DNA of 32,887 nucleotides from Hyphomicrobiales bacterium (GTDB lineage Bacteria; Pseudomonadota; Alphaproteobacteria; Rhizobiales; Beijerinckiaceae). Made by a program: the position numbers and the translations under genes. Below the pieces are notes generated by a model that worked only from the letters and a program-made list of their open reading frames with translations, had not been told where the DNA came from and made no database searches. Location of the stretch: NCBI GenBank assembly GCA_026400555.1, contig JAPLOW010000089.1, forward strand, positions 1 to 32,887, read 5' to 3'. Numbering within the stretch: position 1 is the stretch's first letter; every line of letters starts with the position of its first letter. Positions 17,559 to 31,091 of the stretch are shown piece by piece.

Positions 17559-18797
17559 TCAGAATACCGTTCCGTCGCTGATGATGGCCAGCGGCGGGCC
17601 GCCATCCGCACGCTTTTCTTTCGCGATCCGCCGACCGGCTGCCCAGGTGCCGCCTTCGAGGACCTTGGCGAGCGGCAGTTCGGCGGCGCTCAGCCCGAGT
17701 CTGGCACGCATCCTCGCAGCGATGATGTCGAGCAGCGCCACGGTCAGCGCGCGCCACTCGACGACGAGTACGGACGACACGGCATGCCTGCGCGTCCAGT
17801 CAGCGGGGTCCTTCAGGGACAGAACGCCGAAATCAAGCAGCAATCCTCCGTTGCGGTACTCGGGAAGACCGGTGAGGCCATCAATGTCGCGGACATCGTG
17901 ACCGGCCCATTGCAGCGGCTCGATCAGCGAGTAGGTCAGCCATTGCGAGAGCTTGTGGAACGGGACGGCGCTGCCATGCCCCGGGAGCGGGATGCCGTGC
18001 GGATGAAACCACGTATCGCCGCAGCCGGGGACGGCGCCGGCGCGCTCGGGCCAGATGCCGCTGAATTCCTTCAGAACCTCCACCAGCATCATCGACGCCA
18101 GCAGCGGGTTGCCCGACTCCAGCGTTTCGAGGAACAGGTCTGCAAGGATCGAGGGCCGCTGATTGCCGGGCTGATCGGCATGGCGGTCGGCCAGTTCCTC
18201 GCCAAGCCGGTGCAACAGCGCTGTCCGCCCTTCAAGGCCGACAAGCGGATTGTCCGCCCCGACCTGGAAGCCGCGGCGCAGGTCGCCGACCGAGAGTCGC
18301 TGCAGCCGTTCGGCATCGACCCTGAGCGGTTCGCCCGGATGAGCCGAAAACAGTCCCTCCCGGAACATGGTGAAAGAGGCCAGCCCAAGCCCCTCGGACT
18401 TGCTGGCTTCGACGCGCGTGATCGGCTCCACAAAGCGCCAGCCCATCCCGGCCCCCGCATCCAGCAGCACGCTGACAATCACAAGGTCATAGGCGGCCTT
18501 GACGCGCGCCCGCTGCGACGTCCAGTCCGTCGCCTTGTCGAGGTCTGCCCACAGATCGCGGCCGCCGGCACGGAAATGCCGCCAGCGCGCGTGAAACGGG
18601 ATCTCGCCCGTCGGATAGTTCGCGCGCGTGGTCTCGATGACATAGTCGACCACCGCATCAAGGCGGCTCTCGTCGAGCGACAAATGGGCCAGCTCGCCGG
18701 CGCGGGCGTGGTCGAGCAGCTTCCGGGCGGCCATGCGCACGGCTCCGCCGTTCATGAGGCGCTGGTTCAGGCCATGATGGCTGAGAATGCCGGACAT
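17559..18797 (-). CDS. DUF1688 family protein (URC4/Urg3-like), probable uracil catabolism
   Basis: [106 protein letters not shown]. Sits between a GTP cyclohydrolase II-like gene and upp. Confidence 0.87.
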
Positions 18798-18800
18798 CGC

Positions 18801-20060
18801 TCAGAACTTGTCCAGCCCACGGCCGACCGTGCCTTTCAGCGCATTGTCGCCGGGCGTGCCCTCGGGCGCATAGTAGCCGGCGGCCTTCTTGGCCTCCATC
18901 TCGACCGAGGCGTCCTGCGGGATCAATTCGGGCGGGATCGGCACACGCTCGCCGATCTCGATGCCGGACTGGACCATGGCGTCGTACTTCATGTTCGACA
19001 TCGACATCAGCCGGTCGATCTTCGTCACGCCGAGCCAGTGCAGGATATCCGGCATGAGCTGCTGAAAGCGCGCATCCTGCACACCGGCCACGCATTCGGT
19101 GCGTTCGAAATAGGTCGCGGCGCTGTCTCCGCCCTCCTGCCGCTTGCGGGCGTTGTAGACGAGGAATTTCGTGACCTCGCCGAGCGCCCTGCCCTCCTTG
19201 CGGTTGTAGACGATGAGGCCGACGCCGCCGCGCTGGGCTTCGATGGTGGCTTCCTCGATGCCATGGGTGAGGTAGGGCCGGCAGGTGCAGATGTCGGAGC
19301 CGAACACATCCGAGCCGTTGCATTCGTCATGAACGCGGCACGCGAGTCTCTTCTTCGGATTGGCGAGATCGGCCACGTCGCCGATCACATAGGCCGTCAT
19401 CGAGCCGATCGGCGGCAGGAAGACCTTCATGTCCGGCCGGGTCACCAGTTCGGTGAACATGCCGCCCGTCTGCTCGAACAGGGTGCGGCGCAACTCGTTC
19501 TCGCTCGTGCCGAAACGCTCGGCGACGCCCGGCAGCCACCAGACCGAATCGACCGCGATCTTGGTGACCGAGATATCGCCGGAGGCATGCAGGATTCGGC
19601 CATCGGGCGCGAGCCTGCGGGCGGCCATGGCGGCCGTGATCTCGGGCAGGTTCAGCCGCGCTTTCGTCACGGCAATGGTCGGGCGAATGTCGACGCCCTC
19701 GGCGATCTCGCGGGAAAAGTCGCGCGCCACGCGGTGGCCCCAGGGATCGAGCGAGACGATCTTGCCGGGCGTCGACCACTGCGGATAGGGCCCGATCTCG
19801 GCAGTCGGGTAGGTGTTGGTAAGGTCAGGCCGGGCCGACGGGTTCATGGCGCGGGCAGAGACCGCCAGTGCCCGATAGAGCGAATAGGCGCCGCCATAGG
19901 CGCCGATCACGTTGCGGTCGAGCGGCGTCGTCGTCGCCCCCACAACGGGACCGCGCTCCTCGATCGTGGCGGCGTCCCACTTCACCGGAAAGCGCGAGGT
20001 CGCAGTGCCCGGTTCCGGGTGGGAGGTGAGGCGGATATGAGTGGACCGGTTGGCGGTCAT
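18801..20060 (-). CDS. GTP cyclohydrolase II-like protein with N-terminal extension (URC1/Urg1-like)
   Basis: C-terminal GCHII-like domain RVHDECNGSDVFGSDICTCRPYLTHGIEEA...VYNRKEGRALGEVTKFLVYN...QDARF...GIEIGERVPI, plus a long N-terminal extension that does not look like RibB. Confidence 0.87.
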   Translation of the reverse strand: MTANRSTHIRLTSHPEPGTATSRFPVKWDAATIEERGPVVGATTTPLDRNVIGAYGGAYSLYRALAVSARAMNPSARPDLTNTYPTAEIGPYPQWSTPGKIVSLDPWGHRVARDFSREIAEGVDIRPTIAVTKARLNLPEITAAMAARRLAPDGRILHASGDISVTKIAVDSVWWLPGVAERFGTSENELRRTLFEQTGGMFTELVTRPDMKVFLPPIGSMTAYVIGDVADLANPKKRLACRVHDECNGSDVFGSDICTCRPYLTHGIEEATIEAQRGGVGLIVYNRKEGRALGEVTKFLVYNARKRQEGGDSAATYFERTECVAGVQDARFQQLMPDILHWLGVTKIDRLMSMSNMKYDAMVQSGIEIGERVPIPPELIPQDASVEMEAKKAAGYYAPEGTPGDNALKGTVGRGLDKF

Positions 20061-20310
20061 CACGGGGCTCCAAAACAAATGTGGCTCCGGACGCAAGAGG
20101 CCGGAGCCGTTCGATCAGGCGTCGCAGCGCCTCACACTCGTAAGGTGGCGCGGCGGAAGCCTGACGTCAACGCGTTGCTCGATGAACATTGCGCAGCCTG
20201 CGTCAAATCCGCCGGCGTTCATGGCGGGGATCGGCTGTTCGTCTTTGCGTCCGTTGGCGATTCTCCGCATAGAGGCAGGACAGACTGATTCAACAAGGCT
20301 GCGTTGCTCC

Positions 20311-21414
20311 ATGATCCGTATCTTCATCCTGATCGCAGCCATGCTGTTTGCAGCCCCGACCTGGGGCCAGAGCGCGGTGCCCGCGAGCACACAGCCCCTG
20401 ACGGTCGCGACGCGGGTTGTGCCGCCGATGGTGATCAAGGACAACAAGGGCGACCTGAGCGGATTCAGCATCGACCTGTGGAACGCCATTGCGCGCGATC
20501 TCAACATGGCCTTCACCTACCGCGAGATCGCGGCGTTGCCGGACCTGCTCGCAAGCGTGCAGACCAAACAGGCCGACCTCGCCGTAGCCGCCATCTCGAT
20601 CACCGCCGAGCGCGAGCGCATTTTCGACTTTTCGCAGCCCATTCTTGACGCCGGATTGCAGATCATGGTGCGCGCGGATCGCGGCGGCCCGCCTCCACTC
20701 TATGCGACGCTGTGGAGCCTGATGACTTCGGGGCCAATGCGTGACCTGTTCGTGCTGATGCTGCTGCTGGCGATCATCCCTGTGCCGTTGGTCTATTTGT
20801 CCGAGCGGCGCAAGCCGGATTCAGTGATCCACGCGCCGTCGGGGGCCGGCAAGATCGGCAATTCGCTGTGGTGGTCGATCACAACCATGGCAGGCCAGGC
20901 CCCCGACATGCCGCGGTCGCTGCTGGGCCGGTTCATCGCCGTGGCCTGGATTTTCACAGGCGTCGTGTTCATCTCCTATTTCACGGCGACCGTGACGGCC
21001 TCGCTCACGGTGCGGCAGCTCGATTCGTCGATTTCGAAGCTCGACGATTTACCCGGCAAGCGGGTCGGCACCGTGCGCGCCAGCACTGCCGACACATTCC
21101 TGCGCGCCCAGCGGATCGAGACCAGCGGGTTCGTGCAGATCAAGGACGCATTCGATGCACTCCAGTCCGACAGGCTCGATGCGGTCGTCTTCGATGCGCC
21201 AGTCCTCAGTTTTCATGCGGCCCGGGAAGGCAAGGGCAAGGTGGTCGTGGTCGGGACGATCCTCAAGCCGGAAGCCTACGGCATCCTGTTCGCTGACGAC
21301 AACCCGCTCCGCAAGGCGGTCAACCAGAGCTTGCTGAAACTGCGCGAGAGCGGGGAGCACGAGGCGATCCGGCGCAAGTGGTTTGGCGGCGCTGAGGCCG
21401 CTGCCGGCGGTTGA
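20311..21414 (+). CDS. Ionotropic glutamate receptor-like protein: periplasmic SBP_bac_3-type ligand-binding domain interrupted by TM1-pore loop-TM2
   Basis: Signal peptide; S1 lobe PLTVATRVVPPMVIKDNKGDLSGFSIDLWNAIARDL...ISITAERERIFDFSQPI; TM LFVLMLLLAIIPVPLVYLSER; pore-like SLWWSITTMAGQAPDMPRSLLGRF; TM IAVAWIFTGVVFISYFTATVTASLTV; S2 lobe to KWFGG. Confidence 0.87.
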   Translation: MIRIFILIAAMLFAAPTWGQSAVPASTQPLTVATRVVPPMVIKDNKGDLSGFSIDLWNAIARDLNMAFTYREIAALPDLLASVQTKQADLAVAAISITAERERIFDFSQPILDAGLQIMVRADRGGPPPLYATLWSLMTSGPMRDLFVLMLLLAIIPVPLVYLSERRKPDSVIHAPSGAGKIGNSLWWSITTMAGQAPDMPRSLLGRFIAVAWIFTGVVFISYFTATVTASLTVRQLDSSISKLDDLPGKRVGTVRASTADTFLRAQRIETSGFVQIKDAFDALQSDRLDAVVFDAPVLSFHAAREGKGKVVVVGTILKPEAYGILFADDNPLRKAVNQSLLKLRESGEHEAIRRKWFGGAEAAAGG

Positions 21415-25227: not shown

Positions 25228-25327
25228 CAGTTGCGGCGTCAAGATGGCTGGCAACGCGCGCGGATCGCGACATATTGTTCAGGCGAATCAGACGCAGCGG
25301 CAACCGGACCACGACAGGAGGCGGCGC

Positions 25328-27205
25328 ATGGCACGATGGACACGGCGCGAGGCGCTGAAGGGAACAGCGGCCACACTTGCCCTGCCTGCGATTGCTTCGC
25401 CTGTGCTGATCAACCCGGCTTTTGCCGAGACCGGCTGGACCGAGACCCATGGTCTATCGACCTTCGGCGAGCTTGGTCTTCCGGCGGACTTCAAGCACTT
25501 CGCCTACGTCAATCCTGCTGCTCCCAAGGGCGGCTTTGTCACGATCCAGCTCAGGAGCGGCGGCGGCAACCAGAGCTTCGATACCTTCAACACCCTCAAC
25601 TCCTTCGTCGACAAGGGCGACGGTGTGGGCGGCACCGAACTCATCTTCGACAGCCTCGTGACCAGCCATGCGGATGAGCCGCTGACCGCCTATGGGCTGC
25701 TGGCCAAGTCGATCCTGATCGCGCCTGACAAACTGACCTATCGCTTCAAGCTGCGCGAGCAGGCCCGCTTCCATGACGGCTCGCCGCTGACGGCGGAGGA
25801 TATCGCCTTCTCGATGAACATCATCAAGACGAAAGGCCATTCCTCCTATCGCCTGTTGCTGCGCGAGCTTGAAAGCGTGACAGCCGATGACCGGCATACG
25901 GTCACCGTCAGGCTCACGCCGAAGAAGAGCCGCGACCTGCACCTGCTCGTCGGCTCGCTCAATGTGTTCTCCAAGAAATTCTGGGACGGGCGCGATTTCG
26001 AAGCTGCGATCCTTGAGCCGATCCTGGGCTCCAGCGCCTACCGGATGGGGCGTTTCGAGCAAGGCCGCTTTATGGAGTATGAGCGGGTCGCCGACTACTG
26101 GGGCAAGGACCTGCCGGTCAGCGTCGGGCTCAACAATTTCGACCGCATCCGCTATGAGTATTACCGCGACCGCAACGTCGCATTCGAGGCCTTCAAGGCC
26201 GGCTCCATCACATTCCAGGAAGAATACACCGCACGGCAGTGGGCAACGGGCTACGACTTCCCGGCCCTTCGCGACGGCAGGGTCAAGCGCGAGGAGCTGC
26301 CGCGTACCGGCACGACGGCGGCGCAGGGCTGGTACTTCAACACCCGCCGCGAGATGTTCAAGGACAAGCGGGTGCGGGAAGCCATCGCGATCTGCTTCGA
26401 TTTCGAGTGGACCAACAAGAACATCATGTTCGGGCTGCGCGCCCGGACCACCTCGTACTTCGAACGCTCCGACAAGAAGGCGGAAGGGCTGCCCTCGCCG
26501 GAGGAACTGGCGCTGCTTGAGCCGTTCCGCGCGACGCTGGATCCGGAGGTCTTCGCCGCGCCATGGGTGCCGCCCGTCTCAGATGGTTCGGGCAATGACA
26601 GGGCTCTCCTGAGGCGCGCCAACGAGCTTCTGCTGGCGGCCGGCTGCAAGCGCGACGGCGCCATCATGCGCCTGCCCGACGGAAAGCCGTTCGAGATCGA
26701 ATTCCTTGATTCCAACCCCGCGCTGCACCCGCACACGCAGCCCTTCATTGCCAACCTGAAGCGGCTCGGCATCGAGGGGCGGCTGCGCACGGTCGACCCG
26801 GCCCAGTACCAGAACCGGACCAACGGCTTTGAGTTCGATATGGTCAGCTTGGCCCTCGGCGGCTCGCAGATCCCGGGCGACACCCTGCGCATCGTTATGG
26901 GTTCGGAGGCGGCGAAGACGCCCGGTTCGCGCAACTATGCCGGGATCGCCGACCCCGCGATCGACGCGTTGCTGACCGTGATCGCCAATGCGACCTCCTA
27001 CAAGGAGGTGGTCGTGGCCTGCCGGGCGCTCGACCGCGTGTTTCGGGCCGGGCGCTACTGGATCCCGATGTGGCATGCGCCGACGGTCTGGCTGGCCTAC
27101 TGGGACATGTATGAGCGGCCCGAAGTCCAGCCGAAATTCGGCGAGGGCGCACCTTCGACATGGTGGTTCAATCCGGAAAAAGCCCGTCGGATCGGGAGAG
27201 CCTGA
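25328..27205 (+). CDS. yejA: Oligopeptide/microcin C-type ABC transporter substrate-binding protein YejA
   Basis: HGLSTFGELGLPADFKHFAYVNPAAPKGG, SFDTFNTLNSFVDKG, RYEYYRDRNVAFEAFKAG; followed by yejB-yejE-yejF homologs; good SD AGGAGG. Confidence 0.93.
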   Translation: MARWTRREALKGTAATLALPAIASPVLINPAFAETGWTETHGLSTFGELGLPADFKHFAYVNPAAPKGGFVTIQLRSGGGNQSFDTFNTLNSFVDKGDGVGGTELIFDSLVTSHADEPLTAYGLLAKSILIAPDKLTYRFKLREQARFHDGSPLTAEDIAFSMNIIKTKGHSSYRLLLRELESVTADDRHTVTVRLTPKKSRDLHLLVGSLNVFSKKFWDGRDFEAAILEPILGSSAYRMGRFEQGRFMEYERVADYWGKDLPVSVGLNNFDRIRYEYYRDRNVAFEAFKAGSITFQEEYTARQWATGYDFPALRDGRVKREELPRTGTTAAQGWYFNTRREMFKDKRVREAIAICFDFEWTNKNIMFGLRARTTSYFERSDKKAEGLPSPEELALLEPFRATLDPEVFAAPWVPPVSDGSGNDRALLRRANELLLAAGCKRDGAIMRLPDGKPFEIEFLDSNPALHPHTQPFIANLKRLGIEGRLRTVDPAQYQNRTNGFEFDMVSLALGGSQIPGDTLRIVMGSEAAKTPGSRNYAGIADPAIDALLTVIANATSYKEVVVACRALDRVFRAGRYWIPMWHAPTVWLAYWDMYERPEVQPKFGEGAPSTWWFNPEKARRIGRA

Positions 27206-27208
27206 GGC

Positions 27209-28318
27209 ATGTTGGCCTACATCGCCCGCCGCGTGCTTTTGATGATCCCGACGCTGTTCGGAATCATGCTGATCTCGTTTGTGCTGGTGCAGTTCGCGCC
27301 CGGCGGGCCGGTCGAGCGCATGATCGCGCAGTTACAGGGGCAGGACGCGGGCACATCGAGCCGGCTCGGCGGGGGCGGCGATGTCGCGGGTGGCGCGCCC
27401 CAGGCCGGCAGCGGCACGGGCGGGGATGTCACCTCGGCCTATCGAGGCGCGCAGGGGCTCGACCCGCAATTCATCAAGGAGCTCGAAAAGCAGTTCGGCT
27501 TCGACAAGCCGGCCCATGAGCGCTTCTTCAAGATGCTGGTCGATTATTCCACCTTCAACTTCGGCAAGAGCTATTTCCGCGACGCGCCCGTGCTGCAGCT
27601 GATCAAGGAAAAGCTGCCGGTCTCGATCTCGCTCGGGCTGTGGATCCTGATCATCGGCTATGCCGTATCGATCCCGCTTGGTATCAGGAAGGCCGTTTCT
27701 GACGGCTCGAAATTCGATGTCTGGACTTCGGGGCTGGTCATTCTCGGCTACGCCATTCCGGGTTTCCTGTTCGCCATCCTGCTGATCGTGCTGTTTGCAG
27801 GCGGCTCGTTCTGGCAAGTGTTTCCGCTGCGCGGGCTGACCTCCGACGGCTGGAAGGACATGCCCTGGCACCGCCAGATCCTCGACTATCTCTGGCACAT
27901 CACGCTGCCGGTGACGGCAATGGCGCTCGGGATCTTTGCCACCAAGACGCTGCTGACCAAGAACTCGTTCCTCGATGAAATCCGCAAGCAGTATGTGCTG
28001 ACCGCCCGTATGAAGGGGCTGAGCGAGACCGGAGTCCTGTATGGGCACGTCTTCCGCAACGCGATGATGATCATCGTGGCAGGCTTTCCCGGCGCTTTTG
28101 TCGGCGCGCTGTTCACCGGCTCGCTGCTGATCGAGACCATTTTCTCTCTCGATGGGCTGGGTCTTCTGTCCTTCGAGGCCATCGTCAACCGTGATTATCC
28201 GGTGGTGTTCGCCACCCTGTTCATCTTCTCGCTCGTCGGCCTCGTGGTGCACCTTATCTCCGATCTCATGTATACTTGGATCGATCCGCGCATCGATTTC
28301 GAGACGCGGGAGACGTGA
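27209..28318 (+). CDS. yejB: ABC transporter permease YejB
   Basis: [42 protein letters not shown], Gly-rich linker then [29 protein letters not shown]; permease signature. Confidence 0.94.
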
Positions 28319-29463
28319 CGTTGGACGCTGCCATTGCCCGCCCGGATGTCGTACCGCCGCCGCCGAAGCGCCCCTTCCTGACGCCGATCAACCAGCGCCG
28401 GCTGTCGAACTTCACCGCCAACAGGCGCGGCTTCTGGTCGCTCGTGATCTTCATGGCGCTGTTCGTGCTGTGCCTGTTCGCCGAACTGATCGCCAACGAC
28501 CGGCCGATTTTTGTCAGCTACAAGGGCGAATTCCTTGTGCCGATCGCCGTCGACTATCCCGAAGAGAAGTTCGGCGGCTTCCTCGCGCGCACCGACTACC
28601 GTGACCCGGTCATCCAGAAGGAAATCGCCGCCAACGGTTTCGCCATCTGGCCGCTCATCCGCTTCAGCTATTCCACCCACAATCTCGACCTGCCGGTGCC
28701 GGCTCCTGCCCCCCCGACGTGGCTATTGAAGGACGAGCAATGCAAGGCGCAGGCGCAGAAAGTGGGCGGCAGCACCTGCCACGACATCGAGTGGAACTGG
28801 CTCGGCACCGATGACCAGGGCCGTGATGTGGTGGCGCGGCTGATCTATGGCTTCCGGCTCTCGGTGCTGTTCGGCCTGACGCTGGCGATCATCTCATCCG
28901 TCATCGGCATCGCGGCCGGCGCGGTGCAGGGCTATTTCGGCGGCTGGACGGACCTGATCTTCCAACGCGTGATCGAAATCTGGACCTCGATCCCCTCGCT
29001 CTATCTGCTGATCATCATCTCATCAGTGATCACGCCGAGCTTCTGGGTGCTGCTCGGCATCCTCTTGCTGTTCTCATGGGTGGCGCTGGTCGGCGTGGTG
29101 CGTGCCGAATTCCTGCGGGCGCGCAATTTCGAATATGTCCGCGCCGCCCGCGCACTCGGCCTCTCCAGCTCAAAGATCATGGTCAAGCATCTGTTGCCCA
29201 ACGCCATGGTGGCGACGCTGACCTTCATGCCCTTCGTGCTCAACGGCTCGATCACAACGCTGACTTCACTCGATTTTCTTGGCTTCGGCCTGCCCCCAGG
29301 CTCACCCTCGCTGGGCGAATTGCTGGCGCAGGGCAAAAACAACCTGCAAGCGCCCTGGCTTGGCCTCGCGGGGTTCCTCGTGATCTCGCTAATGCTGTCG
29401 CTCTTGGTGTTCATCGGCGAGGCGGTGCGCGATGCGTTTGACCCGAGGAAGACGTTCGCGTGA
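28315..29463 (+). CDS. yejE: ABC transporter permease YejE, probable GTG start
   Basis: [93 protein letters not shown] overlap with yejB. Confidence 0.93.
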
Positions 29464-31091
29464 CCTCCCCCCTGCTCTACGTCGAAAACCTCTCCGTCGC
29501 CTTCTCACAGGGCGGCCAGCAGACCCTCGCGGTCGATGACGTGTCATTCACCCTCCAGCCTGGCGAGACGCTGGCGCTGGTGGGCGAGTCGGGTTCCGGC
29601 AAGTCCGTCACCGCCCTGTCGATCCTCAAGCTGCTGCAATATCCGCCCGCCTCGCACCCGTCAGGCCGCGTGATGTTCATGGGCCGGGACTTGCTCAGCG
29701 CCAGCGAGGACAAACTCAGGCAGGTGCGCGGCAATGACATCACCATGGTGTTCCAGGAGCCGATGACCTCGCTCAACCCGCTGCACACCATCGAGAAGCA
29801 GATCGGCGAGATTCTGGCCCTGCACAAGGGACTAACCGGCGAGACTGCCCGCAAGCGCACGCTGGAACTGCTCGATCTCGTGGGCATCCGCAACGCGGCA
29901 GAGCGGCTCGACGCCTATCCGCACCAACTCTCCGGCGGACAGCGCCAGCGCGTGATGATCGCCATGGCGCTGGCCAACGAGCCGAAGCTGCTGATCGCGG
30001 ATGAGCCGACCACGGCGCTCGATGTCACCGTCCAGGCGCAAATCCTCAAGCTGCTCAAGGAGCTGCAGCAGCGGCTCGGCATGGCGATGCTGTTTATCAC
30101 CCATGACCTTGGCATTGTGCGCCGCATCGCAACCCGAGTCTGCGTGATGCTGCAGGGCAGAATCGTCGAGCAGGGCAAGATCGCCGAGGTGTTTGACGCG
30201 CCGCAGCATGCCTACACACAGCGCCTGCTGGCGGCGGAGCCAAAGGGCAAGCCGAGGCCGATTCCGCCGGATGCGAAGACCATTCTCGAAGCCGGCCCGC
30301 TGAAAATCTGGTTCCCGATCAAGAAGGGTTTCCTGCGCTCCACGGTCGGCCATGTGAAGGCGGTCGACGGCGTCTCGATCACCATCCGCGAAGGTGAGAC
30401 AGTCGGCGTGGTTGGGGAATCCGGCTCCGGCAAAACCACGCTCGGCCTTGCCATCCTGCGCCTGATCTCCTCCGAAGGACCGATCGTGTTCCTGGGCGAG
30501 AACATCAACGGGCTCAAATCCGCGGCGATGCGCCCAAAGCGCCGCGCCATGCAGGTCGTCTTCCAGGACCCTTATGGCTCACTGTCCCCTCGCCTGTCCG
30601 TTGCCGGCATCGTCGAGGAAGGCCTGCTGGTGCAGGACAAGGGCCTCTCCTACAACGAACGCCGGGCCGTTGTGGCCCGTGCCCTGATCGATGTCGGGCT
30701 CGACCCCGCCGCCATGGACCGCTATCCGCATGAGTTTTCAGGCGGTCAGCGCCAGCGCATCGCCATCGCTCGCGCCATGGCGCTCAACCCAGGTTTTGTG
30801 GTGCTGGACGAGCCGACCTCGGCGCTCGACATGTCAGTGCAGGCGCAGATCGTCGACCTGCTGCGCGACCTGCAGGACAGGCGCGGGCTCGCCTACATGT
30901 TCATCAGCCATGACCTCAAGGTGGTGCGCGCGCTCTCGCACCGCGTGCTGGTGATGCAGAACGGCAAGGTCGTCGAAGAGGGCGAAGGTGAAGCCATCTT
31001 TGCCGCCCCGCAGACAGACTATACCAAGGCCCTGTTTGCAGCAGCCTTCAATCTGGACGCGCACGGGGCTGCGCACGCGGTGCGGGAGTAG
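29460..31091 (+). CDS. yejF: ABC transporter duplicated ATP-binding protein YejF
   Basis: Two ATPase modules: [14 protein letters not shown] / [15 protein letters not shown] / [12 protein letters not shown] and [14 protein letters not shown] / [15 protein letters not shown] / [15 protein letters not shown] overlap with yejE. Confidence 0.96.

Follow-up and report, generated by a model that had tools for sequence, protein, structure and literature searches.

A Hyphomicrobiales glutamate receptor-like protein without a GYG filter belongs to a conserved clade of bacterial Q-filter proteins

Does a bacterial gene with the architecture of an ionotropic glutamate receptor (iGluR), and with no GYG motif in its pore, encode a K+ channel that has decayed, a channel of another selectivity or no channel at all? 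The origin of glutamate receptors is told in reviews through one K+-selective bacterial channel, GluR0, which is presented as the bacterial type (PMC12332018, PMC11479355, PMC12551409). Ger et al. (2010) described 22 prokaryotic proteins of S1-M1-P-M3-S2 topology, dividing them into 12 with a K+ filter (Group 1) and 10 without a recognisable K+ filter (Group 2), and proposed that Group 2 is nearer to the eukaryotic receptors than Group 1 (PMC2950845). The question is raised here by a gene in a stretch of 32,887 nucleotides (the window) from a Hyphomicrobiales bacterium.

The gene lies on the forward strand of the window at 20311-21414 and encodes an iGluR-like protein of 367 residues, with an open frame, start and stop as given by an earlier, sequence-only reading. 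The frame remains open 5' of 20311, as far as a GTG at 20041; the start is placed at 20311 since the N-terminus from there resembles a signal peptide. The order of parts, signal peptide-S1-M1-P-M3-S2, emerges from the reading frame, Pfam and an AlphaFold2 model. The predicted signal peptide, MIRIFILIAAMLFAAPTWGQ (20311-20370), is helical at residues 3-12 of the model. The S1 lobe of the ligand-binding domain (approximately residues 27-122, 20389-20676) aligns to the structure 2PYY from residue 28 and contains S96 and R101. The M1 helix follows within residues 141-165 (20731-20805), ending in ERRK, and then a pore helix of 16 residues (178-193, 20842-20889), predicted to re-enter from the cytoplasmic side. 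The extended filter loop AGQAPDMPRS (residues 194-203, 20890-20919), which lacks GYG, includes Q196, encoded at 20896-20898. The M3 helix (residues 204-237, 20920-21021) contains FISYFTATVTASLTV, the counterpart of SSYTANLAAFLTV in the alignment with AMPA receptors, and the S2 lobe (approximately residues 240-360, 21028-21390) carries S258, T259 and D295, recognised as amino-acid-site residues from the 2PYY alignment and from conservation. Neither the sequence nor the model contains an M4 helix or an amino-terminal domain, the protein beginning at S1 and ending after S2. Nor do they contain an output domain besides the pore, the predicted cytoplasmic parts being short loops only.

The secreted S1 lobe, transmembrane segment, re-entrant loop, second transmembrane segment and S2 lobe claimed in the earlier reading are borne out by Pfam and by the AlphaFold2 monomer prediction, which was made from 42 sequences and has a mean pLDDT of 85.8. 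In this model M1, the short pore helix, the extended loop and M3 all lie between the lobes, so that the ligand-binding domain is split into S1 and S2 by M1-P-M3 as in the iGluR superfamily. The Arg/Lys-rich segments ERRK, after M1, and PRSLLGR, between the loop and M3, fit the cytoplasmic side by the positive-inside rule, and the membrane domain appears to be inverted, as in iGluRs. Among solved structures, sequence comparison gives the closest match (218 bits) to 2PYY, the binding domain of Nostoc punctiforme GluR0. A Foldseek search with the model also puts 2PYY on top (TM-score 0.95, normalised by target length); AMPA receptor chains come next, aligned across both lobes and the membrane domain. 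The Pfam families Lig_chan (PF00060) and Lig_chan-Glu_bd score 58 and 43.9 bits respectively (cut-offs 30.8 and 30), whilst the K+-channel family Ion_trans_2 reaches 18.8, under its cut-off of 22.5. This is the one Lig_chan match in the host genome assembly (3.79 Mb, 262 contigs, approximately 85% complete).

Both lobes also match SBP_bac_3, the 102.9-bit match being split over residues 30-359, and GlnH-type proteins, and plasmid-borne relatives are annotated as 'transporter substrate-binding domain-containing protein'. It is nevertheless scarcely credible that the protein is a membrane-anchored but otherwise ordinary binding protein of an amino-acid ABC transporter. Binding proteins are not expected to have M1-P-M3 inserted between their lobes or to match Lig_chan, the NCBIfam binding-protein models all score far under their cut-offs, and the locus has no ABC permease or ATPase gene as its direct neighbour. 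The domain order by itself already largely refutes this reading. The plasmid relatives are full-length and occur in 21 plasmid records, with 29-37% identity among the matches listed; most are annotated as transporter substrate-binding proteins and three of the records are labelled Salmonella. Further along the window, at 25244-31091 on the forward strand, stands a row of oligopeptide-type ABC transporter genes (SBP_bac_5, two permeases and a double ATPase) that shows no obvious connection with the iGluR-like gene.

The pore loop, WWSITTMAGQAPDMPRSLLGR, is free of GYG, in agreement with the sequence-only reading, whose quoted loop and M3 strings are found at 20863-20934 and 20971-21012; its TTMAGQAPDMP segment departs from the TVGYG(D) filter of the Group 1 or GluR0 type. 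When the pore segment alone (20698-21033, lobes removed) was compared with all PDB chains, AMPA receptors were the best matches (E = 3.8e-7), and the 60 matches listed were AMPA receptor chains throughout. The pore of a relative from the same genus (L003), with the loop LVTQGESNP and the M3 sequence ALYTAQLTATLTV, likewise matches GluA2 (1.1e-7). As a control, the pore of L005, a protein 36% identical overall that carries TTVGYGD, matches Kv and KcsA channels (6.6e-11). With pores only, Lig_chan gives 51.9 and 61.9 bits for these two non-GYG proteins versus 40.5, 36.8 and 27.4 for three GYG proteins, and Ion_trans_2 gives 22.1 and 25.1 versus 64.4, 69.3 and 60.1. These structure searches and Pfam scores uphold the earlier suggestion that the pore is nearer to AMPA receptors than to K+ channels or GYG relatives. 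The E-value of the AMPA match, the existence of full-length relatives with up to 51% identity and the topology of the model together place the iGluR-like identity beyond chance.

Compared with the AMPA loop this one lacks a residue, and the AMPA alignment therefore requires a one-residue gap; compared with GYG loops it lacks two. In the HMMER alignment the AMPA Q/R site is occupied by G195, the next position by Q196 and the +4 acidic position by D199; 61 of 85 sequences have Asp or Glu there. In M3, ISYFTATVTASLTV, a gating motif resembling SYTANLAAFLTV, aligns without gaps to ISSYTANLAAFLTV. T225, A226, L232 and T233 are invariant or almost so across the clade of relatives described below, while the N and the AAF are not retained.

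Scanning one genome per species with an alignment yielded 441 relatives; an alignment query was needed, a scan of genome contigs with a single sequence having detected none. GYG is absent from all of the best 80 of these 441, in which the loop has the general form TLATQADEMP. Over 85 distinct sequences, a count which is no unbiased census since 80 of the loci were picked by similarity to Q-filter members, the pore positions Q196, W188, F220, A226 and T233 are invariant. So are the ligand positions S96, R101 and D295, with S258 kept in 83 and T259 in 84 of the 85; the contacts to an alpha-amino acid typical of the iGluR superfamily, an Arg in S1 and Asp/Glu and Ser/Thr in S2, are thus conserved. 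The filter of the Hyphomicrobiales protein, GQAPDMP, differs from the clade consensus TQADEMP at G195 and P198, and its own conductance could therefore differ. In a tree built with the filter columns removed, 30 rows representing the Q-filter type form a single clade (support 100/99). The clade extends over Cyanobacteriota, Pseudomonadota, Armatimonadota, Abditibacteriota, Myxococcota and Chloroflexota, as the phyla are named in the source records, several of which are metagenome bins. GYG sequences lie outside it, three label changes being required.

These results bear on whether the protein is a GluR0-type K+ channel that merely lost its motif, or one that is still K+-selective. The sequence-only reading had recognised that GYG homologs aligned at the same position would speak for degeneration, and such homologs do exist: relatives of the same domain order, 36-39% identical, carry TVGYGD there, and the pore alone comes near the Ion_trans_2 threshold (22.1 against 22.5). 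They do not make this protein degenerate, however, because it belongs to a separately supported non-GYG clade whose filter shows strong conservation, not decay, and pore-only searches lead to AMPA receptors rather than K+ channels. The notion of a merely degenerate K+ channel was rejected on the conservation and support of the clade, and a K+-selective channel of this origin is highly improbable.

At least five more non-GYG filter types occur within the same architecture, each forming its own supported clade: GGFE (L039, L050, L147-L149), AMTQ (L037, L038, L044, L047), GHHK (L040, L049), SGK (L008, L159-L161, L163, L164) and GPFN (L167, L168), with AMTQ and GHHK nested among GYG rows. We know of no description of any of these five types. 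In L007 (G040:C1:630845-631840) a Pro/Arg/Lys-rich stretch, GPPQRPRKEMLPQPKLPPQPGKRTSPR, stands in place of the pore loop, and the protein may be a pore-less descendant. In another genome (G230) an iGluR-like gene is split over two neighbouring open frames, each of 235 residues (L053/L169), apparently a frameshifted copy.

Within the genus, among the matches listed, the Q-filter gene occurs in only two of 37 genomes, this one and G031, while another genome of the genus, G020, has the GYG type. The two Q-filter genes belong to different subclades, one with Raskinella (100/94) and the other, that of G031, with Devosia (100/99); such a patchy spread fits horizontal transfer or repeated loss. Misbinning of the contig was checked with its malate synthase, which is 76-79% identical to those of same-genus genomes and 63-73% to others, as expected for a contig of this genus. 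The upstream neighbours of the iGluR-like gene, which lie on the opposite strand, are a GTP cyclohydrolase-II-like gene and a DUF1688 gene; downstream are a HIT gene and a NUDIX gene. Neither at the locus nor across the clade was there any sign of functional linkage or conservation of these four neighbours. The GTP_CH_N/GTP cyclohydrolase II-like gene (17559-20096, reverse strand) is divergent from the iGluR-like gene and stands beside the DUF1688 gene, a pairing known from the URC pathway of uracil degradation. No operon or partner gene was recognised: no neighbour is common across the clade, save for lineage synteny in Nostoc.

The lack of a conserved partner gene tells against the possibility that the protein is a non-conducting receptor, which would bind amino acids and keep the membrane scaffold with a pore that neither opens nor conducts, either signalling through a partner or working as a binding protein tethered to the membrane. 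In its favour, the superfamily can lose the pore, as the replaced loop of L007 illustrates, and no recordings are known: in a search of largely open-access literature, no electrical recordings of any Group 2 or Q-filter protein were found, which is weak evidence that none exist. Against this, the five invariant pore residues are as constant across six phyla as the ligand residues, which suggests that the pore is under selection. A non-conducting receptor is accordingly an improbable alternative.

We consider it likely instead that the protein forms a tetrameric cation channel in the inner membrane, gated by an amino acid and not selective for K+, of the NpGluR0 or Group 2 type; the domain order, fold, clade, absence of GYG and conserved ligand residues are computed, and from them we infer the tetramer, gating, selectivity, ligand and role. 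Each polypeptide would be one subunit of this channel. The exported S1 and S2 lobes would form a clamshell in the periplasm and bind an alpha-amino acid, with R101 holding the carboxylate and D295 the amino group, assisted by S96, S258 and T259. Four M3 helices and four loops entering from the cytoplasmic side would make up the pore, which would open as the closing clamshell pulls on M3. The pore would pass Na+, K+ and perhaps Ca2+. No K+ selectivity is expected of it, since the loop has an iGluR-like G-Q-A-P-D segment in place of the carbonyl cage of TVGYGD. Given the lack of a cytoplasmic output domain, ion flux would be the simplest output, a periplasmic amino-acid signal being converted into a change of membrane potential or cation entry.

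A further proposal is that the non-selective pore of animal and plant receptors arose from or beside the Q-filter clade, in which case K+-selective GluR0 would be a side branch and not ancestral; we regard this as rather doubtful. The bacterial pore profiles, Q-filter and GYG, give eukaryotic pores about the same scores: 40.0 versus 39.3 bits for GluA, 35.8 versus 30.2 for AtGLR3.4, 32.4 versus 28.3 for GluK5 and 25.0 versus 37.4 for GluN1, which favours GYG. AU tests were run on a tree of the region from the end of S1 to the start of S2, filter columns removed. They reject neither placement, giving p = 0.475 for eukaryotes with the Q-filter clade and p = 0.531 with the main GYG group, at a low power since GluN1 and AtGLR3.4 entered as pore strings only (the letters of GluN1 and the plant pore being taken from PDB records). 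Were the proposal true, bacteria would have possessed non-selective amino-acid-gated channels before there were eukaryotes. The gene in the window is by itself an ordinary clade member, and the clade is the object of interest: widespread in bacteria, its amino-acid site intact and its non-K+ filter conserved and animal-like, it offers an experimentally tractable minimal system for asking how a non-selective filter works and whether such a filter predates eukaryotes.

Set beside known systems, the protein is a further member of the already described Group 2 class, which is not itself new (PMC2950845). It has the Group 2 topology with a non-K+ filter and clusters with the N. punctiforme GluR0 ortholog (L085) to the exclusion of GYG types. 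It shares with the Group 2 of Ger et al. the S1-M1-P-M3-S2 order, the lack of a recognisable K+ filter, the Arg in S1 and the Asp in S2, and both that group and the present clade have members in cyanobacteria and proteobacteria (PMC2950845). We found in that text no description of the invariant Q, nor of members from Armatimonadota, Abditibacteriota, Myxococcota or Chloroflexota (PMC2950845). What the present analysis adds is how widely the Q-filter clade extends, the invariance of its Q and the further non-GYG filter types. NpGluR0 and its orthologs have the same domain order and ligand residues, fall in the same clade and are 44-46% identical over the full protein; the filter of the orthologs examined (L085) is of the non-GYG TQADEMP type, in contrast to GQAPDMP in the Hyphomicrobiales protein. 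The NpGluR0 crystal, 2PYY, comprises the binding domain only, with L-glutamate, and the NpGluR0-type pore was read from N. punctiforme NIES-2108, not from the gene of the crystallised strain. The nearest relative, 51% identical and sister in the tree (100/94), is an uncharacterised protein of Raskinella chloraquaticus (L035/L063), from another family of the same order, with the loop STLAGQATDMP. A locus of 3,303 bases in G088, a genome of the same order, is identical to a contig of R. chloraquaticus, in keeping with the host's place in Hyphomicrobiales. Synechocystis GluR0, which is K+-selective, and the other Group 1 proteins share the overall architecture but have a TVGYGD filter and lie outside the clade. 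Animal AMPA and kainate receptors and plant GLR3.4 resemble the protein in their pore helix and similar M3 gating motif, whereas it lacks their amino-terminal domain, M4 and C-terminal domain; its filter region, from W187 to F208, spans 22 residues as in AtGLR3.4, compared with 23 in AMPA and kainate receptors.
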